A stretch of DNA of 64,000 nt from positions 52,014,995-52,078,994 of the forward strand of contig OY997659.1 in assembly GCA_963921795.1 (NCBI GenBank), written 5' to 3'. This DNA comes from Nannobrachium achirus (lineage: Eukaryota; Chordata; Actinopteri; Myctophiformes; Myctophidae). This document shows, piece after piece, positions 30,209 to 64,000 of the stretch; position 1 is the first letter of the stretch; each line of letters begins with the position of its first letter. The translations under genes were made by a program, and so were the position numbers. Below the pieces are notes generated by a model that had not been told where the DNA came from, made no database searches, and saw nothing but the letters and a program-made list of their open reading frames with translations.

Positions 30209-30312
30209 TGTGTTCATTTATATTCCTGAACAGATTATATGACAAAGGTCTCAGTCGTTCATAAATAGTTTTTGTTCCAGGTTTGTTCATGAGCTGATCA
30301 AGCCGGCTCCAT

Positions 30313-30446
30313 TCACTGACGCAACCGCAGTTTTCCCAACTACCCTGAGCGCAAGGGTGGGGGCGCAGGAGTGTGGGAAGCCTATTGCCCATCGGCCCCC
30401 ACAGTTGCGCTCAGGGTCATTGGGAAAACGGCGGTCGCTTCACTGA
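30313..30446. repeat. 52-bp inverted repeat spanning the left edge of the array
   Basis: The left arm 30313-30364 and right arm 30395-30446 match at about 44 of 52 positions as reverse complements (for example TTTTCCCAACTACCCTGAGC against GCTCAGGGTCATTGGGAAAA). The first base shared by all array units, at about 30371, lies in the loop. Only the right arm is present in the repeating unit. Confidence 0.8.
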
Positions 30447-31556
30447 CATGCATTTTATCGCACTTCCGGTGCGAGTTCTGGCACCCATGGTGAGCTTCAT
30501 AGCCAGACATGATGCATGCCCGGTGGTCACGTGTTTCAATTCCTTCCTTATCTTCCTTGGATGTGAGGCCAAAAAGGTGCCCTCAGGATATCACGTTATC
30601 ATGAGCTCAAGGCCTGGAGGCCACTGTTGACCTTGGCTTGGAGCAAGCCCTCAGGTATTTCAAGACACTTCCCTCTCCATAGCTCTGTTTGTGCGTGTGC
30701 GCGCGCGCGTGAGAGAGAGATGTCTGTCTATGCAAAGCCGTGCCGTGCGCGACATACATTTGTTGAGCGTGACACACACACACACACGAGTCGTGCGCAT
30801 GCGCGCATGTTAGGGGGAACATGAATAGGGGCAACGGTGCCATGTATTATAGGCCTACACAATAATGTTGTCTACAAAAAGCAACCTCATGGTGGCGCTA
30901 GAAGAGGGGCATGTGAGAAATCAGGGGCTGTGGTTTGCCAGCCAAACTTTAGTGAATCTGTGAATCTTAGAATCTATGTGTTCTAGAGTTATGAAATCTG
31001 TGTTCTGGATGTATACATTCTGTGTTCTAGATCTATACTTTCTAAGTGCTTTAGTTCTATATTTTTATGAATTCTGAATGAAAGATTTTGTCTGGAGGGC
31101 CAAATTGTCATGTGAAGCTTGACCAATCCTCAATTCTGTATGCACAGGACATGTACGGGACATGTACGGGACATACAAAGCCACACCTTGGAAGCGGCTT
31201 TCAAATAACTGTACTCTGTCGAGGTACCAACTTTGCATCTTGTGCACAAGTTGAGATGTGCCGTTTCAACTCCTCAATATTCACTGCTATTTGGAACTAA
31301 ATATTTTGAGATGGGCGTCCGTGGCCAAATAAATATCATTTTGGGGGTCCTTCACATGAAAAGGTTTGAGAACCACTGACATAGTAGTCTCTCGAGAACA
31401 GACTAACTGAGCTCCAGTTAAGTGAAAAGGACCTTTTCTTTGACGATGGCTGGCCAGATTGCTGACATAGAAACATAGTTTTTTCCCAAAAAATCTTAGA
31501 AGGATTCAAAAGACACTTATAGAATCGGGTCAAAATTCAAATGTTCACGATTTTTC

Positions 31557-31630
31557 AAAAATAGCAGATCTACAAGCTCGCAGCGCGGCACTCAGTGCCG
31601 CGCTGTGAGCTTGTATATCTGCTATTTTTT
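31557..31630. repeat. hairpin element within array unit 1
   Basis: AAAATAGCAGATCTACAAGC, GCAGCGCGGCAC, then the complementary GTGCCGCGCTG and GAGCTTGTATATCTGCTATT form a palindrome of about 74 bp. Copies in the other units start at 35398, 39251, 43093, 46955, 50784, 54640 and 62322. Unit 8 has an altered version at 58496. Confidence 0.9.
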
Positions 31631-31890
31631 CAATATTTAAAGCATACAATATTGCGTTATAATGTGTTCAGGCCTAAATGGTTTTAAAGATTCCTCACAG
31701 ACACTTCATGACTTCATGAGTGAACTACTAGCACTCCCCAGTGAACTCAATAAAGATGCAGGATGGACTGGAATCACACAATTGACTCACTGCTTATTAG
31801 TGTAGCATCGTTTTGTATTCTAGCACCGCTCCTTCAATGAAATTAATGTACTGCCTATTTCTTCATCTGAGGTCACAAAAACTGCGTCAG

Positions 31891-31974
31891 CAATGAGCTT
31901 ACGTCATCGATCAATGAGCTTACATCATCGATCAATGAGCTTATGTCATCGATCAATGAGCTTACGCCATCGGC
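31891..31974 (+). promoter_or_regulatory. four tandem 21-bp CRE-like repeats upstream of the ADAM10-like gene
   Basis: Four units CAATGAGCTTACGTCATCGA (plus T or C) contain TTACGTCA, TTACATCA, TTATGTCA and TTACGCCA. The first is the complement of TGACGTAA, an ATF/CREB-type site. The block lies 245 to 162 bp before the ATG and about 6 bp before the TATA-like box. Equivalent blocks start at 35732, 39585, 43427, 47289, 51118, 54974, 58830 and 62656. Confidence 0.6.
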
Positions 31975-31980
31975 CCGTAG

Positions 31981-31989
31981 TTTAAAAAG
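31981..31989 (+). promoter_or_regulatory. TATA-like box of array copy 1
   Basis: TTTAAAAAG lies 155 bp before the start codon, immediately after the CRE-like repeats. It predicts transcription start near 32010-32015 and a 5' UTR of about 120 nt. It occurs at the same offset in every copy. Confidence 0.45.
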
Positions 31990-32097
31990 AGATGCCTTTC
32001 AACGTTAGTCTCTGTGCCGTTAAAGCTTGTATCGTTACTTTTGGTTAATTAGTATTCAGTTTCATCACTTGTAACTTCAAGAGCAGATCAAAGCACA

Positions 32098-32134
32098 TTC
32101 AGCTGAATCAAACTCTCAGTTTGATTCAGCTGAA
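32098..32134 (+). promoter_or_regulatory. perfect 16-bp stem hairpin abutting the start codon
   Basis: TTCAGCTGAATCAAAC, then loop TCTCA, then GTTTGATTCAGCTGAA. The stem ends one base before the ATG. It is identical in all nine copies (starts at 35939, 39792, 43634, 47496, 51325, 55181, 59037 and 62863). In the mRNA it would sit in the path of the scanning ribosome. The same symmetry could alternatively act in DNA, since TTCAGCTGAA holds an E-box-type CAGCTG. Confidence 0.9.
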
Positions 32135-32135
32135 A

Positions 32136-33461
32136 ATGAACTCATTTAAGAAGGTGTTGCTGGTTCTTTGCTTTCTACAGAGCACTGCATGTCAGCTCAG
32201 AGACCCGCTGAACCAACACATCTGCCATCATGAAGGCCTGTCATATGACAGAGAGGCCCTGCAGAAGACAGCAGCATCTGAAGACGGCGTCCTGATGCTG
32301 AACTTCAAGGCTTATGGAAGGATCTTTAACTTGAAGATGAAGAGGGACAACAGCCTGTTGTCTCCACACCTCATGCTGGAGGCGCCCAATGCCAGCGCTC
32401 ACATTTACACCGTAGAGGCCTTGGGTGAGAATGGCACCGTAACCCATGGCACTGTGATCGATGGCCGCTTCGAGGGCCTGATCCACACGGGTCAAGGCAC
32501 ATACCATGTGGAACGTTCTGAGACCTACTTCAATGTGAGTGTTCCCCATCACTCTGTCATCTTTCATGAGAAGGACACCAGCTATCCTCATAGTGGCTCC
32601 CAGGAGGGTGGCTGTGCTGACCACTCACTCTCTGTGGAGGAGACGGCGTCCCAGCCATCAGACCCGATTAAAACAAGGTGGTGCGGCATGTACCTCCAGG
32701 CTGACCACCTCTACTTGAGGAAACACAAGACAGAGGAGCAGGTCGCGAAAATGCTAAACGAAAACATGAAGTTCCTCAACAAAGTGTTTGACAGGGTCAC
32801 TTTTGAGGAATTCCTGGGTGGATCAACGAAACTCCAATTTTATGTGAAAAAGATGACCATCTACGGAGATTCAAACAATGACTTCAAGGATGAGCGCATG
32901 AATGTAATGCAGGTTTTGGATGTCCTCTCAAAACAGAATCACGACGACTACTGCCTTTCCTATTTGTTCACCAGCAGAGTGGACAGGTGGACAGGGTCGA
33001 TTGGCGAAGCTAGTCTTGGGCAGCCGGAGGTAGAGGCGGGAATCTGCGCAAAGAACTCGATGTCGTATCCAAATGGCCCAACCCGACCCCCATGTAAAGA
33101 ACTTTGGTCTAAGAACACAGGCGTTGTTACTGACCTAGACAAATATGGTCAAAATATCAGACCTATAACCACACATATCAACTTTGCCCATAATATTGGA
33201 CACAGCCTTGGCTCCCCACATGACGATGTGGTACATGACGTCTGCAACAAGCTTGGCAAACACAATGACGAATGCAATAAGGTGAAGGCTGACTCATTCA
33301 TTATGTATTATGGAAACACACCAGGGAACCGGCCAAACAACATCTTGTACTCACCATGCAGCAAGTGCAGCATGTATACTGTGCTAAACGGCTCTAGGTT
33401 AGCAACTGGCGAATTAGGAGAAAGACCAAGAAGATGCTTAAGCTTCAATAAACCTCGTTAA
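32136..33461 (+). CDS. secreted ADAM10-like pseudoprotease, array copy 1
   Basis: This is a single-exon gene of 441 codons. The start is the ATG at 32136, which has A at -3 and directly precedes a hydrophobic signal peptide (VLLVLCFLQSTACQ). The ADAM10 prodomain follows (HEGLSYDREALQ, YGRIFNLKMKRDNSL, GTVIDGRFEGLI, EGGCADHS with the cysteine-switch Cys). The metalloprotease domain comes next (SKQNHDDYCLSYLFTSR, HINFAHNIGHSLGSPHD, Met-turn FIMYYGN). The protein ends there, without disintegrin, Cys-rich, membrane or cytoplasmic parts. The HExxH glutamate is Asn, and no RXKR furin site separates prodomain and protease. N-x-S/T sites occur at NAS, NGT, NVS and NGS. Copy 1 lacks 12 bp (codons MRCL) present in the others and has Arg for Lys in RVDRWTG. 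Absence of introns, compared with multi-exon ADAM10, points to a retrocopy. Confidence 0.88.
   Translation: MNSFKKVLLVLCFLQSTACQLRDPLNQHICHHEGLSYDREALQKTAASEDGVLMLNFKAYGRIFNLKMKRDNSLLSPHLMLEAPNASAHIYTVEALGENGTVTHGTVIDGRFEGLIHTGQGTYHVERSETYFNVSVPHHSVIFHEKDTSYPHSGSQEGGCADHSLSVEETASQPSDPIKTRWCGMYLQADHLYLRKHKTEEQVAKMLNENMKFLNKVFDRVTFEEFLGGSTKLQFYVKKMTIYGDSNNDFKDERMNVMQVLDVLSKQNHDDYCLSYLFTSRVDRWTGSIGEASLGQPEVEAGICAKNSMSYPNGPTRPPCKELWSKNTGVVTDLDKYGQNIRPITTHINFAHNIGHSLGSPHDDVVHDVCNKLGKHNDECNKVKADSFIMYYGNTPGNRPNNILYSPCSKCSMYTVLNGSRLATGELGERPRRCLSFNKPR
33447..33452 (+). terminator. poly(A) signal inside the last codons of the ADAM10-like gene
   Basis: AAT-AAA encodes Asn-Lys of the terminal SFNKPR and forms a canonical AATAAA 7 bases before the stop codon. 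If used, cleavage would fall within about 20 nt after TAA, leaving almost no 3' UTR. It is present at the same place in all copies that extend this far. Confidence 0.5.
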
Positions 33462-35976
33462 ATACCTCTGTTAGTATTCTTTAAAACTAATAGAGATGAG
33501 ACGGTTGTGTGTCCTTTTGGTAGCTTTATTGACATCCACTCCACCTCTCCTGAGTGAAATGTCTGGAGCTGGAGTCTGGTGCAACGCACAGGTCCTGGAC
33601 CTGGTGAGACGTAGGAGGGGCCCGGACAGGAGTCAATCCACAGAGCCTGGTCCTTCCTTGCGCCAGATTTCCTCTCCCAGCCTCGGCAGAGTAGTTCCAG
33701 AGTGGTGGAGTGAGTGGCCCTGTCTTTCCCTAATAGGACTGAGAGAGAGAGAGAGAAGTATAGAGCTAAGACTTAGCCACCGCTCACTTCAAACTTGCTT
33801 TGATTTTTTTTTTCAAAATGAAAATGCATTTCAACACGTGAGTTGTGTCATTAAATCAGATCTGTCTTTCACTCACTGTTTGACTGCAATGCATGCATGC
33901 AAGATGCACTGCATGGCTGCCCTGCCTCCCCCCCCCCCTCCCTCTTGACTTGCCTTCACCAATAGCGTTGTCAGGTCACTGGTGCATCAGGCTTGTGCCA
34001 CTTGTTTTTTTTTGTGCCGATATAAAGTATAATTAAAGCAAGACGGAGGCACGCCGTCTCAGGTGATCTTGAGCACCGTGGGACACCGCTGAGTGAGCGG
34101 CAGCGACCGAGTGGCCGTGTCGAGCGGTGCGAAAGTTGCATGATGAGCCGACTCAGACAGATGGTGACTCTTAGTTGGAGAGACAGCCGCTGGCCGCCGC
34201 GTCCACGTCCAGTGTGGGAAGCCTATTGCCCATCGGCCCCCACAGTTGCGCTCAGGGTCATTGGGAAAACGGCGGTCGCTTCACTGACATGCATTTTATC
34301 GCACTTCCGGTGCGAGTTCTGGCACCCATGGTGAGCTTCATAGCCAGACATGATGCATGCCCGGTGGTCACGTGTTTCAATTCCTTCCTTATCTTCCTTG
34401 GATGTGAGGCCAAAAAGGTGCCCTCAGGATATCACGTTATCATGAGCTCAAGGCCTGGAGGCCACTGTTGACCTTGGCTTGGAGCAAGCCCTCAGGTATT
34501 TCAAGACACTTCCCTCTCCATAGCTCTGTTTGTGCGTGTGCGCGCGCGCGTGAGAGAGAGATGTCTGTCTATGCAAAGCCGTGCCGTGCGCGACATACAT
34601 TTGTTGAGCGTGACACACACACACACACGAGTCGTGCGCATGCGCGCATGTTAGGGGGAACATGAATAGGGGCAACGGTGCCATGTATTATAGGCCTACA
34701 CAATAATGTTGTCTACAAAAAGCAACCTCATGGTGGCGCTAGAAGAGGGGCATGTGAGAAATCAGGGGCTGTGGTTTGCCAGCCAAACTTTAGTGAATCT
34801 GTGAATCTTAGAATCTATGTGTTCTAGAGTTATGAAATCTGTGTTCTGGATGTATACATTCTGTGTTCTAGATCTATACTTTCTAAGTGCTTTAGTTCTA
34901 TATTTTTATGAATTCTGAATGAAAGATTTTGTCTGGAGGGCCAAATTGTCATGTGAAGCTTGACCAATCCTCAATTCTGTATGCACAGGACATGTACGGG
35001 ACATGTACGGGACATACAAAGCCACACCTTGGAAGCGGCTTTCAAATAACTGTACTCTGTCGAGGTACCAACTTTGCATCTTGTGCACAAGTTGAGATGT
35101 GCCGTTTCAACTCCTCAATATTCACTGCTATTTGGAACTAAATATTTTGAGATGGGGGTCCGTGGCCAAATAAATATCATTTTGGGGGTCCTTCACATGA
35201 AAAGGTTTGAGAACCACTGACATAGTAGTCTCTCGAGAACAGACTAACTGAGCTCCAGTTAAGTGAAAAGGACCTTTTCTTTGACGATGGCTGGCCAGAT
35301 TGCTGACATAGAAACATAGTTTTTTCCCAAAAAATCTTAGAAGGATTCAAAAGACACTTATAGAATCGGGTCAAAATTCAAATGTTCACGATTTTTCAAA
35401 AATAGCAGATCTACAAGCTCGCAGCGCGGCACTCAGTGCCGCGCTGTGAGCTTGTATATCTGCTATTTTTTCAATATTTAAAGCATAAAATATTGCGTTA
35501 TAATGTGTTCAGGCCTAAATGGTTTTAAAGATTCCTCACAGACACTTCATGACTTCATGAGTGAACTACTAGCACTCCCCAGTGAACTCAATAAAGATGC
35601 AGGATGGACTGGAATCACACAATTGACTCACTGCTTATTAGTGTAGCATCGTTTTGTATTCTAGCACCGCTCCTTCAATGAAATTAATGTACTGCCTATT
35701 TCTTCATCTGAGGTCACAAAAACTGCGTCAGCAATGAGCTTACGTCATCGATCAATGAGCTTACATCATCGATCAATGAGCTTATGTCATCGATCAATGA
35801 GCTTACGCCATCGGCCCGTAGTTTAAAAAGAGATGCCTTTCAACGTTAGTCTCTGTGCCGTTAAAGCTTGTATCGTTACTTTTGGTTAATTAGTATTCAG
35901 TTTCATCACTTGTAACTTCAAGAGCAGATCAAAGCACATTCAGCTGAATCAAACTCTCAGTTTGATTCAGCTGAAA

Positions 35977-37314
35977 ATGAACTCATTTAAGATGAGATGT
36001 TTGAAGGTGTTGCTGGTTCTTTGCTTTCTACAGAGCACTGCATGTCAGCTCAGAGACCCGCTGAACCAACACATCTGCCATCATGAAGGCCTGTCATATG
36101 ACAGAGAGGCCCTGCAGAAGACAGCAGCATCTGAAGACGGCGTCCTGATGCTGAACTTCAAGGCTTATGGAAGGATCTTTAACTTGAAGATGAAGAGGGA
36201 CAACAGCCTGTTGTCTCCACACCTCATGCTGGAGGCGCCCAATGCCAGCGCTCACATTTACACCGTAGAGGCCTTGGGTGAGAATGGCACCGTAACCCAT
36301 GGCACTGTGATCGATGGCCGCTTCGAGGGCCTGATCCACACGGGTCAAGGCACATACCATGTGGAACGTTCTGAGACCTACTTCAATGTGAGTGTTCCCC
36401 ATCACTCTGTCATCTTTCATGAGAAGGACACCAGCTATCCTCATAGTGGCTCCCAGGAGGGTGGCTGTGCTGACCACTCACTCTCTGTGGAGGAGACGGC
36501 GTCCCAGCCATCAGACCCGATTAAAACAAGGTGGTGCGGCATGTACCTCCAGGCTGACCACCTCTACTTGAGGAAACACAAGACAGAGGAGCAGGTCGCG
36601 AAAATGCTAAACGAAAACATGAAGTTCCTCAACAAAGTGTTTGACAGGGTCACTTTTGAGGAATTCCTGGGTGGATCAACGAAACTCCAATTTTATGTGA
36701 AAAAGATGACCATCTACGGAGATTCAAACAATGACTTCAAGGATGAGCGCATGAATGTAATGCAGGTTTTGGATGTCCTCTCAAAACAGAATCACGACGA
36801 CTACTGCCTTTCCTATTTGTTCACCAGCAGAGTGGACAAGTGGACAGGGTCGATTGGCGAAGCTAGTCTTGGGCAGCCGGAGGTAGAGGCGGGAATCTGC
36901 GCAAAGAACTCGATGTCGTATCCAAATGGCCCAACCCGACCCCCATGTAAAGAACTTTGGTCTAAGAACACAGGCGTTGTTACTGACCTAGACAAATATG
37001 GTCAAAATATCAGACCTATAACCACACATATCAACTTTGCCCATAATATTGGACACAGCCTTGGCTCCCCACATGACGATGTGGTACATGACGTCTGCAA
37101 CAAGCTTGGCAAACACAATGACGAATGCAATAAGGTGAAGGCTGACTCATTCATTATGTATTATGGAAACACACCAGGGAACCGGCCAAACAACATCTTG
37201 TACTCACCATGCAGCAAGTGCAGCATGTATACTGTGCTAAACGGCTCTAGGTTAGCAACTGGCGAATTAGGAGAAAGACCAAGAAGATGCTTAAGCTTCA
37301 ATAAACCTCGTTAA
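35977..37314 (+). CDS. secreted ADAM10-like pseudoprotease, array copy 2
   Basis: This is the intact 445-codon reference form. The signal peptide is about residues 1-24 and the prodomain about 25-185, with cysteine-switch Cys164. The protease domain is about 186-445. The zinc motif runs His356-Asn357-Ile-Gly-His360 to His366-Asp367, and the Met-turn Met is at 394. The three zinc ligands are kept and the general-base Glu is replaced. Copies 5, 6 and 7 encode the same protein. An alternative in-frame start at Met6 would shorten the signal peptide slightly. Confidence 0.88.
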   Translation: MNSFKMRCLKVLLVLCFLQSTACQLRDPLNQHICHHEGLSYDREALQKTAASEDGVLMLNFKAYGRIFNLKMKRDNSLLSPHLMLEAPNASAHIYTVEALGENGTVTHGTVIDGRFEGLIHTGQGTYHVERSETYFNVSVPHHSVIFHEKDTSYPHSGSQEGGCADHSLSVEETASQPSDPIKTRWCGMYLQADHLYLRKHKTEEQVAKMLNENMKFLNKVFDRVTFEEFLGGSTKLQFYVKKMTIYGDSNNDFKDERMNVMQVLDVLSKQNHDDYCLSYLFTSRVDKWTGSIGEASLGQPEVEAGICAKNSMSYPNGPTRPPCKELWSKNTGVVTDLDKYGQNIRPITTHINFAHNIGHSLGSPHDDVVHDVCNKLGKHNDECNKVKADSFIMYYGNTPGNRPNNILYSPCSKCSMYTVLNGSRLATGELGERPRRCLSFNKPR

Positions 37315-43671: not shown

Positions 43672-44262
43672 ATGAACTCATTTAAGATGAGATGTTTGAA
43701 GGTGTTGCTGGTTCTTTGCTTTCTACAGAGCACTGCATGTCAGCTCAGAGACCCGCTGAACCAACACATCTGCCATCATGAAGGCCTGTCATATGACAGA
43801 GAGGCCCTGCAGAAGACAGCAGCATCTGAAGACGGCGTCCTGATGCTGAACTTCAAGGCTTATGGAAGGATCTTTAACTTGAAGATGAAGAGGGACAACA
43901 GCCTGTTGTCTCCACACCTCATGCTGGAGGCGCCCAATGCCAGCGCTCACATTTACACCGTAGAGGCCTTGGGTGAGAATGGCACCGTAACCCATGGCAC
44001 TGTGATCGATGGCCGCTTCGAGGGCCTGATCCACACGGGTCAAGGCACATACCATGTGGAACGTTCTGAGACCTACTTCAATGTGAGTGTTCCCCATCAC
44101 TCTGTCATCTTTCATGAGAAGGACACCAGCTATCCTCATAGTGGCTCCCAGGAGGGTGGCTGTGCTGACCACTCACTCTCTGTGGAGGAGACGGCGTCCC
44201 AGCCATCAGACCCGATTAAAACAAGGTGGTGCGGCATGTACCTCCAGGCTGACCACCTCTAG
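43672..44262 (+). pseudogene. ADAM10-like array copy 4, stopped after the prodomain
   Basis: A 6-bp insertion near 44260 (CTCTAC becomes CTCTAGGCCTAC) introduces an in-frame TAG at 44260-44262. The product would be 196 residues: signal peptide, entire prodomain and only the first strand of the protease domain. The frame downstream stays open to 45015, so read-through would give a full-length protein with two extra residues. It could be a pseudogene or a secreted free prodomain. Confidence 0.75.
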
Positions 44263-45015
44263 GCCTACTTGAGGAAACACAAGACAGAGGAGCAGGTCGC
44301 GAAAATGCTAAACGAAAACATGAAGTTCCTCAACAAAGTGTTTGACAGGGTCACTTTTGAGGAATTCCTGGGTGGATCAACGAAACTCCAATTTTATGTG
44401 AAAAAGATGACCATCTACGGAGATTCAAACAATGACTTCAAGGATGAGCGCATGAATGTAATGCAGGTTTTGGATGTCCTCTCAAAACAGAATCACGACG
44501 ACTACTGCCTTTCCTATTTGTTCACCAGCAGAGTGGACAAGTGGACAGGGTCGATTGGCGAAGCTAGTCTTGGGCAGCCGGAGGTAGAGGCGGGAATCTG
44601 CGCAAAGAACTCGATGTCGTATCCAAATGGCCCAACCCGACCCCCATGTAAAGAACTTTGGTCTAAGAACACAGGCGTTGTTACTGACCTAGACAAATAT
44701 GGTCAAAATATCAGACCTATAACCACACATATCAACTTTGCCCATAATATTGGACACAGCCTTGGCTCCCCACATGACGATGTGGTACATGACGTCTGCA
44801 ACAAGCTTGGCAAACACAATGACGAATGCAATAAGGTGAAGGCTGACTCATTCATTATGTATTATGGAAACACACCAGGGAACCGGCCAAACAACATCTT
44901 GTACTCACCATGCAGCAAGTGCAGCATGTATACTGTGCTAAACGGCTCTAGGTTAGCAACTGGCGAATTAGGAGAAAGACCAAGAAGATGCTTAAGCTTC
45001 AATAAACCTCGTTAA
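44263..45015 (+). pseudogene. ADAM10-like array copy 4, remainder of the frame after TAG
   Basis: The frame of copy 4 continues without further disruption through QNHDDYCLSYLF, HNIGHSLGSPHD and FIMYYGN to the usual TAA. There is no separate promoter or signal peptide, so it would be translated only by read-through of TAG or not at all. Confidence 0.7.
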
Positions 45016-47533: not shown

Positions 47534-48871
47534 ATGAACTCATTTAAGATGAGATGTTTGAAGGTGTTGCTGGTTCTTTGCTTTCTACAGAGCACTGCAT
47601 GTCAGCTCAGAGACCCGCTGAACCAACACATCTGCCATCATGAAGGCCTGTCATATGACAGAGAGGCCCTGCAGAAGACAGCAGCATCTGAAGACGGCGT
47701 CCTGATGCTGAACTTCAAGGCTTATGGAAGGATCTTTAACTTGAAGATGAAGAGGGACAACAGCCTGTTGTCTCCACACCTCATGCTGGAGGCGCCCAAT
47801 GCCAGCGCTCACATTTACACCGTAGAGGCCTTGGGTGAGAATGGCACCGTAACCCATGGCACTGTGATCGATGGCCGCTTCGAGGGCCTGATCCACACGG
47901 GTCAAGGCACATACCATGTGGAACGTTCTGAGACCTACTTCAATGTGAGTGTTCCCCATCACTCTGTCATCTTTCATGAGAAGGACACCAGCTATCCTCA
48001 TAGTGGCTCCCAGGAGGGTGGCTGTGCTGACCACTCACTCTCTGTGGAGGAGACGGCGTCCCAGCCATCAGACCCGATTAAAACAAGGTGGTGCGGCATG
48101 TACCTCCAGGCTGACCACCTCTACTTGAGGAAACACAAGACAGAGGAGCAGGTCGCGAAAATGCTAAACGAAAACATGAAGTTCCTCAACAAAGTGTTTG
48201 ACAGGGTCACTTTTGAGGAATTCCTGGGTGGATCAACGAAACTCCAATTTTATGTGAAAAAGATGACCATCTACGGAGATTCAAACAATGACTTCAAGGA
48301 TGAGCGCATGAATGTAATGCAGGTTTTGGATGTCCTCTCAAAACAGAATCACGACGACTACTGCCTTTCCTATTTGTTCACCAGCAGAGTGGACAAGTGG
48401 ACAGGGTCGATTGGCGAAGCTAGTCTTGGGCAGCCGGAGGTAGAGGCGGGAATCTGCGCAAAGAACTCGATGTCGTATCCAAATGGCCCAACCCGACCCC
48501 CATGTAAAGAACTTTGGTCTAAGAACACAGGCGTTGTTACTGACCTAGACAAATATGGTCAAAATATCAGACCTATAACCACACATATCAACTTTGCCCA
48601 TAATATTGGACACAGCCTTGGCTCCCCACATGACGATGTGGTACATGACGTCTGCAACAAGCTTGGCAAACACAATGACGAATGCAATAAGGTGAAGGCT
48701 GACTCATTCATTATGTATTATGGAAACACACCAGGGAACCGGCCAAACAACATCTTGTACTCACCATGCAGCAAGTGCAGCATGTATACTGTGCTAAACG
48801 GCTCTAGGTTAGCAACTGGCGAATTAGGAGAAAGACCAAGAAGATGCTTAAGCTTCAATAAACCTCGTTAA
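47534..48871 (+). CDS. secreted ADAM10-like pseudoprotease, array copy 5
   Basis: Intact, 445 codons, same protein as copy 2. The unit differs outside the gene: a 27-bp loss after the stop at 49432 removes the ATATAAAGTATAATTAAAGC stretch. Confidence 0.88.
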   Translation: MNSFKMRCLKVLLVLCFLQSTACQLRDPLNQHICHHEGLSYDREALQKTAASEDGVLMLNFKAYGRIFNLKMKRDNSLLSPHLMLEAPNASAHIYTVEALGENGTVTHGTVIDGRFEGLIHTGQGTYHVERSETYFNVSVPHHSVIFHEKDTSYPHSGSQEGGCADHSLSVEETASQPSDPIKTRWCGMYLQADHLYLRKHKTEEQVAKMLNENMKFLNKVFDRVTFEEFLGGSTKLQFYVKKMTIYGDSNNDFKDERMNVMQVLDVLSKQNHDDYCLSYLFTSRVDKWTGSIGEASLGQPEVEAGICAKNSMSYPNGPTRPPCKELWSKNTGVVTDLDKYGQNIRPITTHINFAHNIGHSLGSPHDDVVHDVCNKLGKHNDECNKVKADSFIMYYGNTPGNRPNNILYSPCSKCSMYTVLNGSRLATGELGERPRRCLSFNKPR

Positions 48872-51362: not shown

Positions 51363-52700
51363 ATGAACTCATTTAAGATGAGATGTTTGAAGGTGTTGCT
51401 GGTTCTTTGCTTTCTACAGAGCACTGCATGTCAGCTCAGAGACCCGCTGAACCAACACATCTGCCATCATGAAGGCCTGTCATATGACAGAGAGGCCCTG
51501 CAGAAGACAGCAGCATCTGAAGACGGCGTCCTGATGCTGAACTTCAAGGCTTATGGAAGGATCTTTAACTTGAAGATGAAGAGGGACAACAGCCTGTTGT
51601 CTCCACACCTCATGCTGGAGGCGCCCAATGCCAGCGCTCACATTTACACCGTAGAGGCCTTGGGTGAGAATGGCACCGTAACCCATGGCACTGTGATCGA
51701 TGGCCGCTTCGAGGGCCTGATCCACACGGGTCAAGGCACATACCATGTGGAACGTTCTGAGACCTACTTCAATGTGAGTGTTCCCCATCACTCTGTCATC
51801 TTTCATGAGAAGGACACCAGCTATCCTCATAGTGGCTCCCAGGAGGGTGGCTGTGCTGACCACTCACTCTCTGTGGAGGAGACGGCGTCCCAGCCATCAG
51901 ACCCGATTAAAACAAGGTGGTGCGGCATGTACCTCCAGGCTGACCACCTCTACTTGAGGAAACACAAGACAGAGGAGCAGGTCGCGAAAATGCTAAACGA
52001 AAACATGAAGTTCCTCAACAAAGTGTTTGACAGGGTCACTTTTGAGGAATTCCTGGGTGGATCAACGAAACTCCAATTTTATGTGAAAAAGATGACCATC
52101 TACGGAGATTCAAACAATGACTTCAAGGATGAGCGCATGAATGTAATGCAGGTTTTGGATGTCCTCTCAAAACAGAATCACGACGACTACTGCCTTTCCT
52201 ATTTGTTCACCAGCAGAGTGGACAAGTGGACAGGGTCGATTGGCGAAGCTAGTCTTGGGCAGCCGGAGGTAGAGGCGGGAATCTGCGCAAAGAACTCGAT
52301 GTCGTATCCAAATGGCCCAACCCGACCCCCATGTAAAGAACTTTGGTCTAAGAACACAGGCGTTGTTACTGACCTAGACAAATATGGTCAAAATATCAGA
52401 CCTATAACCACACATATCAACTTTGCCCATAATATTGGACACAGCCTTGGCTCCCCACATGACGATGTGGTACATGACGTCTGCAACAAGCTTGGCAAAC
52501 ACAATGACGAATGCAATAAGGTGAAGGCTGACTCATTCATTATGTATTATGGAAACACACCAGGGAACCGGCCAAACAACATCTTGTACTCACCATGCAG
52601 CAAGTGCAGCATGTATACTGTGCTAAACGGCTCTAGGTTAGCAACTGGCGAATTAGGAGAAAGACCAAGAAGATGCTTAAGCTTCAATAAACCTCGTTAA
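51363..52700 (+). CDS. secreted ADAM10-like pseudoprotease, array copy 6
   Basis: Intact, 445 codons, same protein as copy 2, with HNIGHSLGSPHD and no furin site. The upstream promoter, CRE-like repeats and start-codon hairpin are all preserved. Confidence 0.88.
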   Translation: MNSFKMRCLKVLLVLCFLQSTACQLRDPLNQHICHHEGLSYDREALQKTAASEDGVLMLNFKAYGRIFNLKMKRDNSLLSPHLMLEAPNASAHIYTVEALGENGTVTHGTVIDGRFEGLIHTGQGTYHVERSETYFNVSVPHHSVIFHEKDTSYPHSGSQEGGCADHSLSVEETASQPSDPIKTRWCGMYLQADHLYLRKHKTEEQVAKMLNENMKFLNKVFDRVTFEEFLGGSTKLQFYVKKMTIYGDSNNDFKDERMNVMQVLDVLSKQNHDDYCLSYLFTSRVDKWTGSIGEASLGQPEVEAGICAKNSMSYPNGPTRPPCKELWSKNTGVVTDLDKYGQNIRPITTHINFAHNIGHSLGSPHDDVVHDVCNKLGKHNDECNKVKADSFIMYYGNTPGNRPNNILYSPCSKCSMYTVLNGSRLATGELGERPRRCLSFNKPR

Positions 52701-55218: not shown

Positions 55219-56556
55219 ATGAACTCATTTAAGATGAGATGTTTGAAGGTGTTGCTGGTTCTTTGCTTTCTACAGAGCACTGCATGTCAGCTCAGAGACC
55301 CGCTGAACCAACACATCTGCCATCATGAAGGCCTGTCATATGACAGAGAGGCCCTGCAGAAGACAGCAGCATCTGAAGACGGCGTCCTGATGCTGAACTT
55401 CAAGGCTTATGGAAGGATCTTTAACTTGAAGATGAAGAGGGACAACAGCCTGTTGTCTCCACACCTCATGCTGGAGGCGCCCAATGCCAGCGCTCACATT
55501 TACACCGTAGAGGCCTTGGGTGAGAATGGCACCGTAACCCATGGCACTGTGATCGATGGCCGCTTCGAGGGCCTGATCCACACGGGTCAAGGCACATACC
55601 ATGTGGAACGTTCTGAGACCTACTTCAATGTGAGTGTTCCCCATCACTCTGTCATCTTTCATGAGAAGGACACCAGCTATCCTCATAGTGGCTCCCAGGA
55701 GGGTGGCTGTGCTGACCACTCACTCTCTGTGGAGGAGACGGCGTCCCAGCCATCAGACCCGATTAAAACAAGGTGGTGCGGCATGTACCTCCAGGCTGAC
55801 CACCTCTACTTGAGGAAACACAAGACAGAGGAGCAGGTCGCGAAAATGCTAAACGAAAACATGAAGTTCCTCAACAAAGTGTTTGACAGGGTCACTTTTG
55901 AGGAATTCCTGGGTGGATCAACGAAACTCCAATTTTATGTGAAAAAGATGACCATCTACGGAGATTCAAACAATGACTTCAAGGATGAGCGCATGAATGT
56001 AATGCAGGTTTTGGATGTCCTCTCAAAACAGAATCACGACGACTACTGCCTTTCCTATTTGTTCACCAGCAGAGTGGACAAGTGGACAGGGTCGATTGGC
56101 GAAGCTAGTCTTGGGCAGCCGGAGGTAGAGGCGGGAATCTGCGCAAAGAACTCGATGTCGTATCCAAATGGCCCAACCCGACCCCCATGTAAAGAACTTT
56201 GGTCTAAGAACACAGGCGTTGTTACTGACCTAGACAAATATGGTCAAAATATCAGACCTATAACCACACATATCAACTTTGCCCATAATATTGGACACAG
56301 CCTTGGCTCCCCACATGACGATGTGGTACATGACGTCTGCAACAAGCTTGGCAAACACAATGACGAATGCAATAAGGTGAAGGCTGACTCATTCATTATG
56401 TATTATGGAAACACACCAGGGAACCGGCCAAACAACATCTTGTACTCACCATGCAGCAAGTGCAGCATGTATACTGTGCTAAACGGCTCTAGGTTAGCAA
56501 CTGGCGAATTAGGAGAAAGACCAAGAAGATGCTTAAGCTTCAATAAACCTCGTTAA
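55219..56556 (+). CDS. secreted ADAM10-like pseudoprotease, array copy 7
   Basis: Intact, 445 codons, same protein as copies 2, 5 and 6. The unit length (3856 bp) equals that of unit 6. Confidence 0.88.
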   Translation: MNSFKMRCLKVLLVLCFLQSTACQLRDPLNQHICHHEGLSYDREALQKTAASEDGVLMLNFKAYGRIFNLKMKRDNSLLSPHLMLEAPNASAHIYTVEALGENGTVTHGTVIDGRFEGLIHTGQGTYHVERSETYFNVSVPHHSVIFHEKDTSYPHSGSQEGGCADHSLSVEETASQPSDPIKTRWCGMYLQADHLYLRKHKTEEQVAKMLNENMKFLNKVFDRVTFEEFLGGSTKLQFYVKKMTIYGDSNNDFKDERMNVMQVLDVLSKQNHDDYCLSYLFTSRVDKWTGSIGEASLGQPEVEAGICAKNSMSYPNGPTRPPCKELWSKNTGVVTDLDKYGQNIRPITTHINFAHNIGHSLGSPHDDVVHDVCNKLGKHNDECNKVKADSFIMYYGNTPGNRPNNILYSPCSKCSMYTVLNGSRLATGELGERPRRCLSFNKPR

Positions 56557-59074
56557 ATACCTCTGTTAGTATTCTTTAAAACTAATAGAGATGAGACGGT
56601 TGTGTGTCCTTTTGGTAGCTTTATTGACATCCACTCCACCTCTCCTGAGTGAAATGTCTGGAGCTGGAGTCTGGTGCAACGCACAGGTCCTGGACCTGGT
56701 GAGACGTAGGAGGGGCCCGGACAGGAGTCAATCCACAGAGCCTGGTCCTTCCTTGCGCCAGATTTCCTCTCCCAGCCTCGGCAGAGTAGTTCCAGAGTGG
56801 TGGAGTGAGTGGCCCTGTCTTTCCCTAATAGGACTGAGAGAGAGAGAGAGAAGTATAGAGCTAAGACTTAGCCACCGCTCACTTCAAACTTGCTTTGATT
56901 TTTTTTTTCAAAATGAAAATGCATTTCAACACGTGAGTTGTGTCATTAAATCAGATCTGTCTTTCACTCACTGTTTGACTGCAATGCATGCATGCAAGAT
57001 GCACTGCATGGCTGCCCTGCCTCCCCCCCCCCCCCCTCCCTCTTGACTTGCCTTCACCAATAGCGTTGTCAGGTCACTGGTGCATCAGGCTTGTGCCACT
57101 TGTTTTTTTTTGTGCCGATATAAAGTATAATTAAAGCAAGACGGAGGCACGCCGTCTCAGGTGATCTTGAGCACCGTGGGACACCGCTGAGTGAGCGGCA
57201 GCGACCGAGTGGCCGTGTCGAGCGGTGCGAAAGTTGCATGATGAGCCGACTCAGACAGATGGTGACTCTTAGTTGGAGAGACAGCCGCTGGCCGCCGCGT
57301 CCACGTCCAGTGTGGGAAGCCTATTGCCCATCGGCCCCCACAGTTGCGCTCAGGGTCATTGGGAAAACGGCGGTCGCTTCACTGACATGCATTTTATCGC
57401 ACTTCCGGTGCGAGTTCTGGCACCCATGGTGAGCTTCATAGCCAGACATGATGCATGCCCGGTGGTCACGTGTTTCAATTCCTTCCTTATCTTCCTTGGA
57501 TGTGAGGCCAAAAAGGTGCCCTCAGGATATCACGTTATCATGAGCTCAAGGCCTGGAGGCCACTGTTGACCTTGGCTTGGAGCAAGCCCTCAGGTATTTC
57601 AAGACACTTCCCTCTCCATAGCTCTGTTTGTGCGTGTGCGCGCGCGCGTGAGAGAGAGATGTCTGTCTATGCAAAGCCGTGCCGTGCGCGACATACATTT
57701 GTTGAGCGTGACACACACACACACACGAGTCGTGCGCATGCGCGCATGTTAGGGGGAACATGAATAGGGGCAACGGTGCCATGTATTATAGGCCTACACA
57801 ATAATGTTGTCTACAAAAAGCAACCTCATGGTGGCGCTAGAAGAGGGGCATGTGAGAAATCAGGGGCTGTGGTTTGCCAGCCAAACTTTAGTGAATCTGT
57901 GAATCTTAGAATCTATGTGTTCTAGAGTTATGAAATCTGTGTTCTGGATGTATACATTCTGTGTTCTAGATCTATACTTTCTAAGTGCTTTAGTTCTATA
58001 TTTTTATGAATTCTGAATGAAAGATTTTGTCTGGAGGGCCAAATTGTCATGTGAAGCTTGACCAATCCTCAATTCTGTATGCACAGGACATGTACGGGAC
58101 ATGTACGGGACATACAAAGCCACACCTTGGAAGCGGCTTTCAAATAACTGTACTCTGTCGAGGTACCAACTTTGCATCTTGTGCACAAGTTGAGATGTGC
58201 CGTTTCAACTCCTCAATATTCACTGCTATTTGGAACTAAATATTTTGAGATGGGGGTCCGTGGCCAAATAAATATCATTTTGGGGGTCCTTCACATGAAA
58301 AGGTTTGAGAACCACTGACATAGTAGTCTCTCGAGAACAGACTAACTGAGCTCCAGTTAAGTGAAAAGGACCTTTTCTTTGACGATGGCTGGCCAGATTG
58401 CTGACATAGAAACATAGTTTTTTCCCAAAAAATCTTAGAAGGATTCAAAAGACACTTATAGAATCGGGTCAAAATTCAAATGTTCACGATTTTTCAAAAA
58501 TAGCAGATCTACAAGCTCTTTCAAAAATAGCAGATCTACAAGCGTGAGCTTGTATATCTGCTATTTTTTCAATATTTAAAGCATAAAATATTGCGTTATA
58601 ATGTGTTCAGGCCTAAATGGTTTTAAAGATTCCTCACAGACACTTCATGACTTCATGAGTGAACTACTAGCACTCCCCAGTGAACTCAATAAAGATGCAG
58701 GATGGACTGGAATCACACAATTGACTCACTGCTTATTAGTGTAGCATCGTTTTGTATTCTAGCACCGCTCCTTCAATGAAATTAATGTACTGCCTATTTC
58801 TTCATCTGAGGTCACAAAAACTGCGTCAGCAATGAGCTTACGTCATCGATCAATGAGCTTACATCATCGATCAATGAGCTTATGTCATCGATCAATGAGC
58901 TTACGCCATCGGCCCGTAGTTTAAAAAGAGATGCCTTTCAACGTTAGTCTCTGTGCCGTTAAAGCTTGTATCGTTACTTTTGGTTAATTAGTATTCAGTT
59001 TCATCACTTGTAACTTCAAGAGCAGATCAAAGCACATTCAGCTGAATCAAACTCTCAGTTTGATTCAGCTGAAA

Positions 59075-60383
59075 ATGAACTCATTTAAGATGAGATGTTT
59101 GAAGGTGTTGCTGGTTCTTTGCTTTCTACAGAGCACTGCATGTCAGCTCAGAGACCCGCTGAACCAACACATCTGCCATCATGAAGGCCTGTCATATGAC
59201 AGAGAGGCCCTGCAGAAGACAGCAGCATCTGAAGACGGCGTCCTGATGCTGAACTTCAAGGCTTATGGAAGGATCTTTAACTTGAAGATGAAGAGGGACA
59301 ACAGCCTGTTGTCTCCACACCTCATGCTGGAGGCGCCCAATGCCAGCGCTCACATTTACACCGTAGAGGCCTTGGGTGAGAATGGCACCGTAACCCATGG
59401 CACTGTGATCGATGGCCGCTTCGAGGGCCTGATCCACACGGGTCAAGGCACATACCATGTGGAACGTTCTGAGACCTACTTCAATGTGAGTGTTCCCCAT
59501 CACTCTGTCATCTTTCATGAGAAGGACACCAGCTATCCTCATAGTGGCTCCCAGGAGGGTGGCTGTGCTGACCACTCACTCTCTGTGGAGGAGACGGCGT
59601 CCCAGCCATCAGACCCGATTAAAACAAGGTGGTGCGGCATGTACCTCCAGGCTGACCACCTCTACTTGAGGAAACACAAGACAGAGGAGCAGGTCGCGAA
59701 AATGCTAAACGAAAACATGAAGTTCCTCAACAAAGTGTTTGACAGGGTCACTTTTGAGGAATTCCTGGGTGGATCAACGAAACTCCAATTTTATGTGAAA
59801 AAGATGACCATCTACGGAGATTCAAACAATGACTTCAAGGATGAGCGCATGAATGTAATGCAGGTTTTGGATGTCCTCTCAAAACAGAATCACGACGACT
59901 ACTGCCTTTCCTATTTGTTCACCAGCAGAGTGGACAAGTGGACAGGGTCGATTGGCGAAGCTAGTCTTGGGCAGCCGGAGGTAGAGGCGGGAATCTGCGC
60001 AAAGAACTCGATGTCGTATCCAAATGGCCCAACCCGACCCCCACGTTGTTACTGACCTAGACAAATATGGTCAAAATATCAGACCTATAACCACACATAT
60101 CAACTTTGCCCATAATATTGGACACAGCCTTGGCTCCCCACATGACGATGTGGTACATGACGTCTGCAACAAGCTTGGCAAACACAATGACGAATGCAAT
60201 AAGGTGAAGGCTGACTCATTCATTATGTATTATGGAAACACACCAGGGAACCGGCCAAACAACATCTTGTACTCACCATGCAGCAAGTGCAGCATGTATA
60301 CTGTGCTAAACGGCTCTAGGTTAGCAACTGGCGAATTAGGAGAAAGACCAAGAAGATGCTTAAGCTTCAATAAACCTCGTTAA
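59075..60383 (+). pseudogene. ADAM10-like array copy 8, frameshifted by a 29-bp deletion
   Basis: Twenty-nine bases are missing at the 60043/60044 junction, after NGPTRPP. The frame shifts, adds RCY and stops at 60053-60055, giving 326 residues without the zinc-motif helix. The remaining protease sequence (VVTDLDKYGQ through HNIGH to SFNKPR) continues in another frame to 60383. This unit also has a rearranged hairpin element at 58496-58570. Confidence 0.85.
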
Positions 60384-62900
60384 ATACCTCTGTTAGTATT
60401 CTTTAAAACTAATAGAGATGAGACGGTTGTGTGTCCTTTTGGTAGCTTTATTGACATCCACTCCACCTCTCCTGAGTGAAATGTCTGGAGCTGGAGTCTG
60501 GTGCAACGCACAGGTCCTGGACCTGGTGAGACGTAGGAGGGGCCCGGACAGGAGTCAATCCACAGAGCCTGGTCCTTCCTTGCGCCAGATTTCCTCTCCC
60601 AGCCTCGGCAGAGTAGTTCCAGAGTGGTGGAGTGAGTGGCCCTGTCTTTCCCTAATAGGACTGAGAGAGAGAGAGAGAAGTATAGAGCTAAGACTTAGCC
60701 ACCGCTCACTTCAAACTTGCTTTGATTTTTTTTTTCAAAATGAAAATGCATTTCAACACGTGAGTTGTGTCATTAAATCAGATCTGTCTTTCACTCACTG
60801 TTTGACTGCAATGCATGCATGCAAGATGCACTGCATGGCTGCCCTGCCTCCCCCCCCCCCCCTCCCTCTTGACTTGCCTTCACCAATAGCGTTGTCAGGT
60901 CACTGGTGCATCAGGCTTGTGCCACTTGTTTTTTTTTGTGCCGATATAAAGTATAATTAAAGCAAGACGGAGGCACGCCGTCTCAGGTGATCTTGAGCAC
61001 CGTGGGACACCGCTGAGTGAGCGGCAGCGACCGAGTGGCCGTGTCGAGCGGTGCGAAAGTTGCATGATGAGCCGACTCAGACAGATGGTGACTCTTAGTT
61101 GGAGAGACAGCCGCTGGCCGCCGCGTCCACGTCCAGTGTGGGAAGCCTATTGCCCATCGGCCCCCACAGTTGCGCTCAGGGTCATTGGGAAAACGGCGGT
61201 CGCTTCACTGACATGCATTTTATCGCACTTCCGGTGCGAGTTCTGGCACCCATGGTGAGCTTCATAGCCAGACATGATGCATGCCCGGTGGTCACGTGTT
61301 TCAATTCCTTCCTTATCTTCCTTGGATGTGAGGCCAAAAAGGTGCCCTCAGGATATCACGTTATCATGAGCTCAAGGCCTGGAGGCCACTGTTGACCTTG
61401 GCTTGGAGCAAGCCCTCAGGTATTTCAAGACACTTCCCTCTCCATAGCTCTGTTTGTGCGTGTGCGCGCGCGCGTGAGAGAGAGATGTCTGTCTATGCAA
61501 AGCCGTGCCGTGCGCGACATACATTTGTTGAGCGTGACACACACACACACACGAGTCGTGCGCATGCGCGCATGTTAGGGGGAACATGAATAGGGGCAAC
61601 GGTGCCATGTATTATAGGCCTACACAATAATGTTGTCTACAAAAAGCAACCTCATGGTGGCGCTAGAAGAGGGGCATGTGAGAAATCAGGGGCTGTGGTT
61701 TGCCAGCCAAACTTTAGTGAATCTGTGAATCTTAGAATCTATGTGTTCTAGAGTTATGAAATCTGTGTTCTGGATGTATACATTCTGTGTTCTAGATCTA
61801 TACTTTCTAAGTGCTTTAGTTCTATATTTTTATGAATTCTGAATGAAAGATTTTGTCTGGAGGGCCAAATTGTCATGTGAAGCTTGACCAATCCTCAATT
61901 CTGTATGCACAGGACATGTACGGGACATGTACGGGACATACAAAGCCACACCTTGGAAGCGGCTTTCAAATAACTGTACTCTGTCGAGGTACCAACTTTG
62001 CATCTTGTGCACAAGTTGAGATGTGCCGTTTCAACTCCTCAATATTCACTGCTATTTGGAACTAAATATTTTGAGATGGGGGTCCGTGGCCAAATAAATA
62101 TCATTTTGGGGGTCCTTCACATGAAAAGGTTTGAGAACCACTGACATAGTAGTCTCTCGAGAACAGACTAACTGAGCTCCAGTTAAGTGAAAAGGACCTT
62201 TTCTTTGACGATGGCTGGCCAGATTGCTGACATAGAAACATAGTTTTTTCCCAAAAAATCTTAGAAGGATTCAAAAGACACTTATAGAATCGGGTCAAAA
62301 TTCAAATGTTCACGATTTTTCAAAAATAGCAGATCTACAAGCTCGCAGCGCGGCACTCAGTGCCGCGCTGTGAGCTTGTATATCTGCTATTTTTTCAATA
62401 TTTAAAGCATAAAATATTGCGTTATAATGTGTTCAGGCCTAAATGGTTTTAAAGATTCCTCACAGACACTTCATGACTTCATGAGTGAACTACTAGCACT
62501 CCCCAGTGAACTCAATAAAGATGCAGGATGGACTGGAATCACACAATTGACTCACTGCTTATTAGTGTAGCATCGTTTTGTATTCTAGCACCGCTCCTTC
62601 AATGAAATTAATGTACTGCCTATTTCTTCATCTGAGGTCACAAAAACTGCGTCAGCAATGAGCTTACGTCATCGATCAATGAGCTTACATCATCGATCAA
62701 TGAGCTTATGTCATCGATCAATGAGCTTACGCCATCGGCCCGTAGTTTAAAAAGAGATGCCTTTCAACGTTAGTCTCTGTGCCGTTAAAGCTTGTATCGT
62801 TACTTTTGGTTAATTAGTATTCAGTTTCATCACTTGTAACTTCAAGAGCAGATCAAAGCACATTCAGCTGAATCAAACTCTCAGTTTGATTCAGCTGAAA

Positions 62901-64000
62901 ATGAACTCATTTAAGATGAGATGTTTGAAGGTGTTGCTGGTTCTTTGCTTTCTACAGAGCACTGCATGTCAGCTCAGAGACCCGCTGAACCAACACATCT
63001 GCCATCATGAAGGCCTGTCATATGACAGAGAGGCCCTGCAGAAGACAGCAGCATCTGAAGACGGCGTCCTGATGCTGAACTTCAAGGCTTATGGAAGGAT
63101 CTTTAACTTGAAGATGAAGAGGGACAACAGCCTGTTGTCTCCACACCTCATGCTGGAGGCGCCCAATGCCAGCGCTCACATTTACACCGTAGAAGCCTTG
63201 GGTGAGAATGGCACCGTAACCCATGGCACTGTGATCGATGGCCGCTTCGAGGGCCTGATCCACACGGGTCAAGGCACATACCATGTGGAACGTTCTGAGA
63301 CCTACTTCAATGTGAGTGTTCCCCATCACTCTGTCATCTTTCATGAGAAGGACACCAGCTATCCTCATAGTGGCTCCCAGGAGGGTGGCTGTGCTGACCA
63401 CTCACTCTCTGTGGAGGAGACGGCGTCCCAGCCATCAGACCCGATTAAAACAAGGTGGTGCGGCATGTACCTCCAGGCTGACCACCTCTACTTGAGGAAA
63501 CACAAGACAGAGGAGCAGGTCGCGAAAATGCTAAACGAAAACATGAAGTTCCTCAACAAAGTGTTTGACAGGGTCACTTTTGAGGAATTCCTGGGTGGAT
63601 CAACGAAACTCCAATTTTATGTGAAAAAGATGACCATCTACGGAGATTCAAACAATGACTTCAAGGATGAGCGCATGAATGTAATGCAGGTTTTGGATGT
63701 CCTCTCAAAACAGAATCACGACGACTACTGCCTTTCCTATTTGTTCACCAGCAGAGTGGACAAGTGGACAGGGTCGATTGGCGAAGCTAGTCTTGGGCAG
63801 CCGGAGGTAGAGGCGGGAATCTGCGCAAAGAACTCGATGTCGTATCCAAATGGCCCAACCCGACCCCCATGTAAAGAACTTTGGTCTAAGAACACAGGCG
63901 TTGTTACTGACCTAGACAAATATGGTCAAAATATCAGACCTATAACCACACATATCAACTTTGCCCATAATATTGGACACAGCCTTGGCTCCCCACATGA
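62901..64000 (+). CDS. secreted ADAM10-like pseudoprotease, array copy 9 (cut by window end)
   Basis: The frame is open from the ATG at 62901 to the window end, in the codon for Asp of HNIGHSLGSPHD. The translated part equals copy 2; one silent change (GAG to GAA in EALGENG) distinguishes it. The array continues beyond the window. Confidence 0.87.
   Translation, partial: MNSFKMRCLKVLLVLCFLQSTACQLRDPLNQHICHHEGLSYDREALQKTAASEDGVLMLNFKAYGRIFNLKMKRDNSLLSPHLMLEAPNASAHIYTVEALGENGTVTHGTVIDGRFEGLIHTGQGTYHVERSETYFNVSVPHHSVIFHEKDTSYPHSGSQEGGCADHSLSVEETASQPSDPIKTRWCGMYLQADHLYLRKHKTEEQVAKMLNENMKFLNKVFDRVTFEEFLGGSTKLQFYVKKMTIYGDSNNDFKDERMNVMQVLDVLSKQNHDDYCLSYLFTSRVDKWTGSIGEASLGQPEVEAGICAKNSMSYPNGPTRPPCKELWSKNTGVVTDLDKYGQNIRPITTHINFAHNIGHSLGSPH

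Follow-up and report, generated by a model that had tools for sequence, protein, structure and literature searches.

A retrogene-derived promoter-leader cassette probably joined to swapped, mostly inactive enzyme bodies in Nannobrachium achirus

Introduction

What is encoded by a long row of nearly identical, intronless genes whose product resembles ADAM10 over part of its length? The question is raised by 64,000 nucleotides of the genome of the fish Nannobrachium achirus (Myctophidae), hereafter the window, located at C22:52014995-52078994 (contig OY997659.1). A first-pass annotation, made from the window alone, had described there a recently amplified array of secreted, ADAM10-derived metalloprotease genes. 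Comparison with the rest of the assembly (GCA_963921795.1; 1.66 Gb, 564 contigs) leads to a broader answer: the array gene is probably one member of a system in which a retrogene-derived promoter-leader cassette is joined to swapped, mostly inactive enzyme bodies, the functional part of this reading being drawn from sequence features.

Retrogene arrays, domain loss in ADAM-type proteases, and the formation of new genes by fusion are already known separately. If the reading proposed here is true, a single intronless promoter-leader present at 34 places, six of which carry other bodies, would be a rare natural experiment on new secreted vertebrate proteins. Tests could then ask if inactive enzymes persist as binders, if body swaps are driven by linker repeats, and if selection acts on copy number.

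Results

A promoter-leader cassette present at 34 places

The cassette measures about 0.8 kb and comprises a promoter with cyclic AMP (cAMP) response element (CRE)-like and TATA-like sites, a signal peptide, and an ADAM10-like prodomain. In the second array unit, used as reference, its parts are:

35690..36513, + strand: promoter-leader cassette; the six fusion loci resemble it closely up to 36513 (unit position 2302, codon 179)
35732..35813, + strand: promoter tandem repeat, 3.9 copies of CAATGAGCTTACGTCATCGAT with CRE-like TTACGTCA; same place in 9/9 window units
35822..35828, + strand: TATA-like TTTAAAA, 155 bases 5' of the ATG
35939..35975, + strand: inverted repeat with a 16-bp stem in the predicted 5' untranslated region (UTR), adjoining the ATG; the 141-nt stretch has -40.1 kcal/mol, z -4.87

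The 16-bp stem recurs in all ten C22-type leaders compared (L012 and L014 may have a G-U pair), and its position before the start codon makes translational control possible.

A search with the 181-residue leader, in which all 55 candidates were scored, gave 44 matches, namely, 19 in the array, two on unplaced contigs, ten (from eight loci) in a second cluster at 54.23-54.29 Mb, six at fusion loci (L009-L014), four in longer retrogenes, and three in multi-exon genes; 33 of the 35 C22-type leader loci share one contig. When 287 bases of promoter and 5' UTR were used as query, 34 places were found, each directly 5' of a leader already identified, and 32 of them within 2.7 Mb of C22. These are 18 array units, eight loci of the second cluster, the six fusion loci (L010 being partial), and the two unplaced contigs; the remaining rows are the hairpin matching its own reverse strand. 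The idea that a promoter was gained for the array alone is not supported, as the same promoter and leader occur at all these places and lead into other bodies at six. The truncated form of the gene is common to the array and the second cluster, so the truncation is older than the array.

Six fusion loci share a breakpoint and differ in what follows

All six fusion loci keep above 90% identity to the array unit as far as unit position 2302 and then have a 51-bp linker repeat; the array itself has apparently one partial linker copy, SVEETASQPSD, as judged by eye. The bodies beyond the linker are three diverged metalloprotease domains (about 52% identical to that of the array in L009 and L010, 33.5% in L011), two double trypsin-like bodies (L013 and L014), and one without a recognised fold (L012). 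Single frames pass through the linker into these differing bodies in L009 (651 residues), L010 (568), L011 (630), and L013 (704, from an internal Met). The catalytic Glu is replaced by Gln in L010 and by Ala in L011, where the third His is missing as well.

The two halves of these genes diverged to very different extents. Between L009 and L011, the leader shows two synonymous changes (synonymous divergence, dS, 0.018), as against about 139 outside it (dS 0.90, a rough value for bodies that align at about one-third identity); for L009 and L010, dS is 0.035 in the leader and 0.225 in the rest. The leaders of L011 and L012 are 97.1% identical over 858 ungapped bases, and their bodies are unlike. 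The 80 bp at the 3' end are identical in L009 and L011 and were found nowhere else; we read them as probably encoding a hydrophobic tail of the kind that precedes a glycosylphosphatidylinositol anchor. The L012 body is coil-like and spread over two frames, with no PDB match up to an expectation value (E) of 1 and no further match in the genome. A C-type lectin identity for it was considered and not confirmed (Lectin_C, E 0.098, at 13.8 bits where the cut-off is 22.6; predicted fold with a pLDDT confidence score of 35).

The trypsin bodies have a family of their own. PF00089 was recognised in L013 and L014 (4.5e-45, in two stretches, and 6.3e-14, respectively), L014 matching residues 26-387 of the L013 double body. 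Both belong to a second intronless family, of which seven of ten long matches, these two included, lie on C22. In its members L037-L041 and L044, the signal peptide and repeats are of another kind, unrelated to the cassette leader. This other leader was found only at these trypsin loci and, as a weak match (E 7e-4), at a C17 locus that is apparently multi-exon. The first trypsin domain of L013 has ARC for AHC and SDVGAP for GDSGGP, changing the His57 and Ser195 positions, and the Ser position is also altered in L037. As a separate observation, L037-L044 are intronless genes with two trypsin-like domains, mainly on C22, several with a repeat-rich N-terminus and changed catalytic residues; they may represent another retrogene family, whose multi-exon relative would lie on C17 near 11.38 Mb.

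Because similarity has a common 3' end at six loci, the bodies differ, and synonymous divergence is unequal in the two halves, the promoter-leader appears to behave as a cassette. Cassette behaviour with body swaps is well supported by these sequence comparisons and is clearest at L012, L013, and L014, which are also damaged.

The array gene descends from ADAM10 by retroposition

Pfam and PDB searches placed the array protein among the ADAM10/17 metalloproteases, with ADAM10 on top (112 bits vs 36 for ADAM17); all 21 solved sequences matched at E 0.01 were ADAM10 or ADAM17. Its metzincin catalytic fold is nearest to ADAM10; Foldseek ranked three ADAM17 zymogen chains higher, and their Z scores were lower on later comparison. 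The prodomain is 43.7% identical to ADAM10 P0093 and 50-55% identical to the intronless L015-L018, and it matches the Pfam propeptide model weakly, below the cut-off (E 0.034). In a 20-row tree, the window protein sat on a long branch with most forks open, and separate prodomain and metalloprotease trees were used in its place. The prodomain tree supports the retro clade at 96/96 and its union with ADAM10 proper at 81/84; in the metalloprotease tree, the array clade is unresolved on a long branch and not grouped with ADAM10 proper.

The same genome contains a multi-exon ADAM10 on C7, in which AG and GT bound the exon homologous to the continuous array frame (one exon compared), and a separate multi-exon ADAM10-like gene on C1. 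Identity of the latter is highest to Centroberyx gerrardi (79.4% over 447 residues), with several percomorphs at about 75% among 101 proteins, and summed bit scores put two other fishes ahead of C. gerrardi. Four longer intronless ADAM10 relatives lie on C23, C16, and C11, which together with C22 makes four large contigs. The first-pass annotation had attributed the gene to ADAM10 and its lack of introns to retroposition. Both proposals hold up well, given the prodomain tree and the splice sites of the C7 gene, and no close homologue with introns, the kind of finding named as refuting them, was seen in this genome. In an old copy, a poly(A) remnant and a target-site duplication would not be expected to persist. 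The evidence that the array gene is a single-exon descendant of ADAM10 by retroposition is therefore strong.

A database search, which that annotation had suggested as a check, returned nine proteins, all named ADAM10, at 31-34% identity (scored candidates only). A profile search gave 101 proteins at E 1e-10, most of which are ADAM10 by name and, in our reading, the ADAM10-like paralog. Residues 250-430 had no match at E 0.001 among 134 scored candidates. A close relative of the truncated gene was not found in other species by searches that required shared five-residue words and covered scored candidates only, nor was a relative found in viral contigs. The matches listed from the openly licensed PMC literature contain no description of such a gene family.

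Constraint, decay, and gene conversion

Could the whole system be non-functional satellite DNA, i.e., a retropseudogene amplified within a 3.85-kb repeat, with frames still open through recency and fusions arising at random in a repeat-rich region? We consider this unlikely, although it has the following in its favour, and most of these points weigh against the cassette reading. Frames are broken in three of the 18 complete array units, and five of the eight leader loci in the second cluster are incomplete. Three of the six fusions are damaged, namely, L012 (latter half of the body out of frame), L013 (leader interrupted by a single TAA), and L014 (leader and body in different frames). Damaged fusions and incomplete cluster loci mean that part of the system may be decaying DNA.

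Recent coding change in the array type does not clearly indicate constraint either. The array differs from three second-cluster genes by 2.4% in the leader, 2.8-3.0% in the metalloprotease part, 0.4-1.9% in the 3' flank, and about 7% in the 5' flank; from the unplaced contigs, the corresponding values are 0.9-1.1%, 1.5-1.8%, 0.1-1.7%, and 2.2-2.3%. In the metalloprotease part, small counts of 19-20 nonsynonymous to 2-4 synonymous changes were obtained against the second cluster (ratio of nonsynonymous to synonymous divergence, dN/dS, 1.3-2.3), and of 10-14 to 1-2 against the unplaced contigs. Compared with L022, the leader has four synonymous and nine nonsynonymous changes and the metalloprotease part four and 20, which is not a significant difference (Fisher p 0.41). 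Both fast change and relaxed constraint are possible for the metalloprotease part. Residues 286-289 (about 36832-36843) take different forms in two array copies, in the second cluster, and on the unplaced contigs; their apparent hypervariability was rejected as a candidate feature, the clustering being not significant (P 0.077).

A CRE-like 8-mer lies within 600 bases of the ATG in the seven C22 leaders examined and in the four longer retrogenes, these sites being short matches taken without statistical control; TTTAAAA is present in seven of seven C22 leaders examined. In the trypsin family, a perfect TGACGTCA occurs in three of the seven genes compared and TATAAA in all seven, the upstream stretches being shorter for four. 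Such sites in both families suggest, and do no more than suggest, a common cAMP-responsive tissue. Promoter similarity between the C22 genes and L015-L018 is weak, as 5/16 pairs beat all 200 simple shuffles by small margins; promoter homology between them was set aside as marginal. L009, moreover, retains HEVAHSVGAPHD and, judging from this motif, could be enzymatically active.

Against satellite DNA stand the four long frames of L009, L010, L011, and L013, which cross the linker into different bodies, and the pairing of promoter and leader at 34 of 34 promoter places, although one array leader copy lacks the promoter. Point estimates of leader dN/dS are 0.47-0.53 in comparisons with five fusion loci and 0.38-0.64 in those with five array-type relatives, and TATA-like and poly(A) signals lie near the frame.

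A different account would attribute the likeness of the leaders to gene conversion among old paralogs alone, with no swap of bodies. Similarity to the array returns in L009 and L010 at 12-13 bases past the breakpoint, at the lower level of 67-68%. Their bodies are thus distant kin of the array body, and a swap explains these two loci no better than an old paralog whose leader was homogenised, which is a further point against the cassette reading. The metalloprotease bodies of L009-L011 could all be of this kind, and the sharing of one contig by nearly all C22-type leader loci would favour conversion. Yet paralog conversion cannot join unlike bodies and so fails for L012, whose body is unrelated, and for L013 and L014, whose trypsin relatives have an unrelated leader; the 3' breakpoint is also common to 6/6 fusion loci. 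Conversion as the sole explanation is accordingly improbable, and it may act in addition to swaps.

Structure and age of the array

In self-comparison, the N-free window resolves from 30371 onwards into nine units arranged head to tail, whose identity to unit 2 is 99.2-99.97% (unit 8 aligning as two segments, at 99.3% and 99.8%). The last is cut by the window end; the other eight measure 3826-3856 bases, with one long open reading frame in each. The first-pass description of nine units of about 3.85 kb is correct for the window; as a total it falls short, since the full array comprises 18 complete units on one large contig (C22:52045365-52114684, 69.3 kb) and the count of nine therefore reflects the window. 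A nineteenth, promoterless copy lies about 12.7 kb past the complete units. Frames are open in 15 of the 18, the broken ones being at 52058663, 52074066, and 52077892. Support for this anatomy is strong, and the head-to-tail, homogenised units are those of a concerted tandem gene array. The features within the window are:

30371..64000, + strand: tandem array, nine of 18 units, starting at 30371, 34212, 38065, 41918, 45769, 49598, 53454, 57310, and 61136; ninth cut at the window end
32136..33461, + strand: copy 1 coding sequence, 12-bp in-frame deletion in the signal-peptide region
35977..37314, + strand: copy 2 coding sequence (reference copy), 445 residues; signal peptide, prodomain, metalloprotease-like domain
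37300..37305, + strand: AATAAA of copy 2, immediately 5' of the stop codon
39830..41167, + strand: copy 3 coding sequence, clustered change, VD to KF at residues 286-287
43672..44262, + strand: copy 4, shortened by a stop codon inside a 6-bp insertion
47534..48871, + strand: copy 5 coding sequence
51363..52700, + strand: copy 6 coding sequence
55219..56556, + strand: copy 7 coding sequence
59075..60055, + strand: copy 8, broken by a 29-bp deletion
62901..64000, + strand: copy 9 coding sequence, leaving the window; frame break near codon 402-410, beyond the window

Differences among the nine units amount to six single-base changes and about seven larger events, none of them shared between units, plus a C-run whose length varies. 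Apart from that run, the private nature of these differences agrees with the very recent amplification proposed at first. The larger events are 12-, 29-, 27-, and 11-bp deletions, a 6-bp insertion, a replacement of about 25 bases in a hairpin loop (unit 8), and clustered changes (unit 3); they are about as numerous as the single-base changes, which is an unusual balance in an array this young.

Two unplaced contigs, C145 (L026) and C487 (L025), carry one unit each, and the sequences on its two sides are collinear with the corresponding array flanks, at about 90-99% identity. The two are 99% identical to each other over 8.6 kb and each 96-98% identical to the C22 locus. Given this degree of identity and the existence of two such contigs, they may be either single-copy alleles or paralogs of the array locus. 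These contigs and the near-identity of the units are what an assembly artefact might produce, with an array collapsed or inflated or joins that are chimeric; private differences in the units, the absence of N from the stretches examined, and a reading frame kept across four of the six joins make it very improbable.

An altered active site

The frame of the array gene, which begins with a signal peptide judged by eye, stops after the metalloprotease domain and lacks the disintegrin, Cys-rich, and transmembrane parts, in line with the domain loss first described. The annotation had also treated the product as a metalloprotease, quoting HINFAH and GSPHD and overlooking that the zinc site has no catalytic Glu:

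37042..37074, + strand: zinc site HNIGHSLGSPH of copy 2, Asn replacing the catalytic Glu

This Asn is present in all nine window units, broken ones counted, and in those relatives of the second cluster and the unplaced contigs whose frames extend that far. The active-site pattern HExGHxxGxxHD is not matched by the array protein (HNIGHSLGSPHD) in any of the nine units; the three zinc-binding His are retained. No furin-type site was found between prodomain and metalloprotease domain, the sole R-x-[KR]-R being at residue 434. In zinc metallopeptidases of this class, Glu serves as the general base. With Asn at this position and the furin-type site lost, the array protein is likely inactive as a protease. 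That it is an active secreted protease with an unusual Asn, as the retained His residues and fold might suggest, is scarcely credible given the established role of Glu, the lost furin-type site, and the Gln or Ala that relatives L010 and L011 carry at this position.

Discussion

The following course of events is proposed. ADAM10 mRNA would have been reverse-transcribed and inserted as an intronless gene, and one descendant on C22, equipped with a CRE/TATA-like promoter, would have been reduced to signal peptide, prodomain, and metalloprotease-like domain. Several members bear the 51-bp repeat linker at the end of the prodomain, and the cassette could have been set before different bodies by DNA-level duplication, gene conversion, or recombination at the linker. 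One truncated member would very recently have been amplified to 18 copies, a number that would increase dose. The prodomain, no longer cleaved by furin, may be an invariant module for secretion and folding. The bodies vary and mostly have altered active sites; they may act by binding, as decoys, inhibitors, or recognition proteins, possibly in a cAMP-responsive secretory or reproductive tissue. Taken as a whole, this would amount to a working parts kit, in which a constant promoter-leader from an ADAM10 retrogene is placed by linker recombination before varied bodies from at least two gene families, giving fast-evolving, secreted, perhaps membrane-anchored pseudo-enzymes without the usual exon shuffling. 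We put this fuller reading tentatively, at slightly less than an even chance.

Snake venom metalloproteinases represent another ADAM lineage, and their P-I form has lost the domains after the protease domain. They resemble the present system in this loss and in a propeptide that is kept while downstream parts are replaced or changed, and a lectin-linked form is mentioned; here there is no sign of venom, and linker repeats and trypsin bodies are absent from the passages of that source (PMC8742412). ADAM10-like is a known vertebrate paralog of ADAM10 (PMC3055250). Both share prodomain and metalloprotease fold with the array protein, human ADAM10 being its best solved match; unlike ADAM10, the array gene lacks introns, the disintegrin, Cys-rich, and transmembrane parts, the furin-type site, and the catalytic Glu. 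The intronless group I testicular ADAM clusters of amniotes likewise represent retroposed ADAM genes that were then duplicated in tandem, and are traced to the Adam9/9-like lineage (PMC4550289). In contrast, the array matches ADAM10/17 (21/21 solved sequences; the trees had no ADAM9 row), and its leader is also attached to non-ADAM bodies. Primate ELOA3 is, like the array, a homogenised tandem array of retrogenes, and is variable in copy number; it encodes an RNA polymerase II elongation factor, and the abstract mentions no leader cassette on other bodies (PMC10664989).

Additional observations

An imperfect inverted repeat spans the left edge of the array:

30310..30449, no strand assigned: 30310-30364 paired with 30394-30449

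The window has no Rfam match at gathering thresholds. In eight units, a frame of 150-180 residues with a signal-like start lies 3' of the gene (33496-33948 and equivalent places); it is probably no gene, because part of its DNA is a dispersed repeat. Elsewhere in the genome, L034 (C3:14096200-14099300, - strand) has a single-exon frame of 690 residues that is ADAM17-like by eye (HELGHNFGADHD, with disintegrin-like and membrane parts), and a second sheddase may therefore also have an intronless copy in this species.

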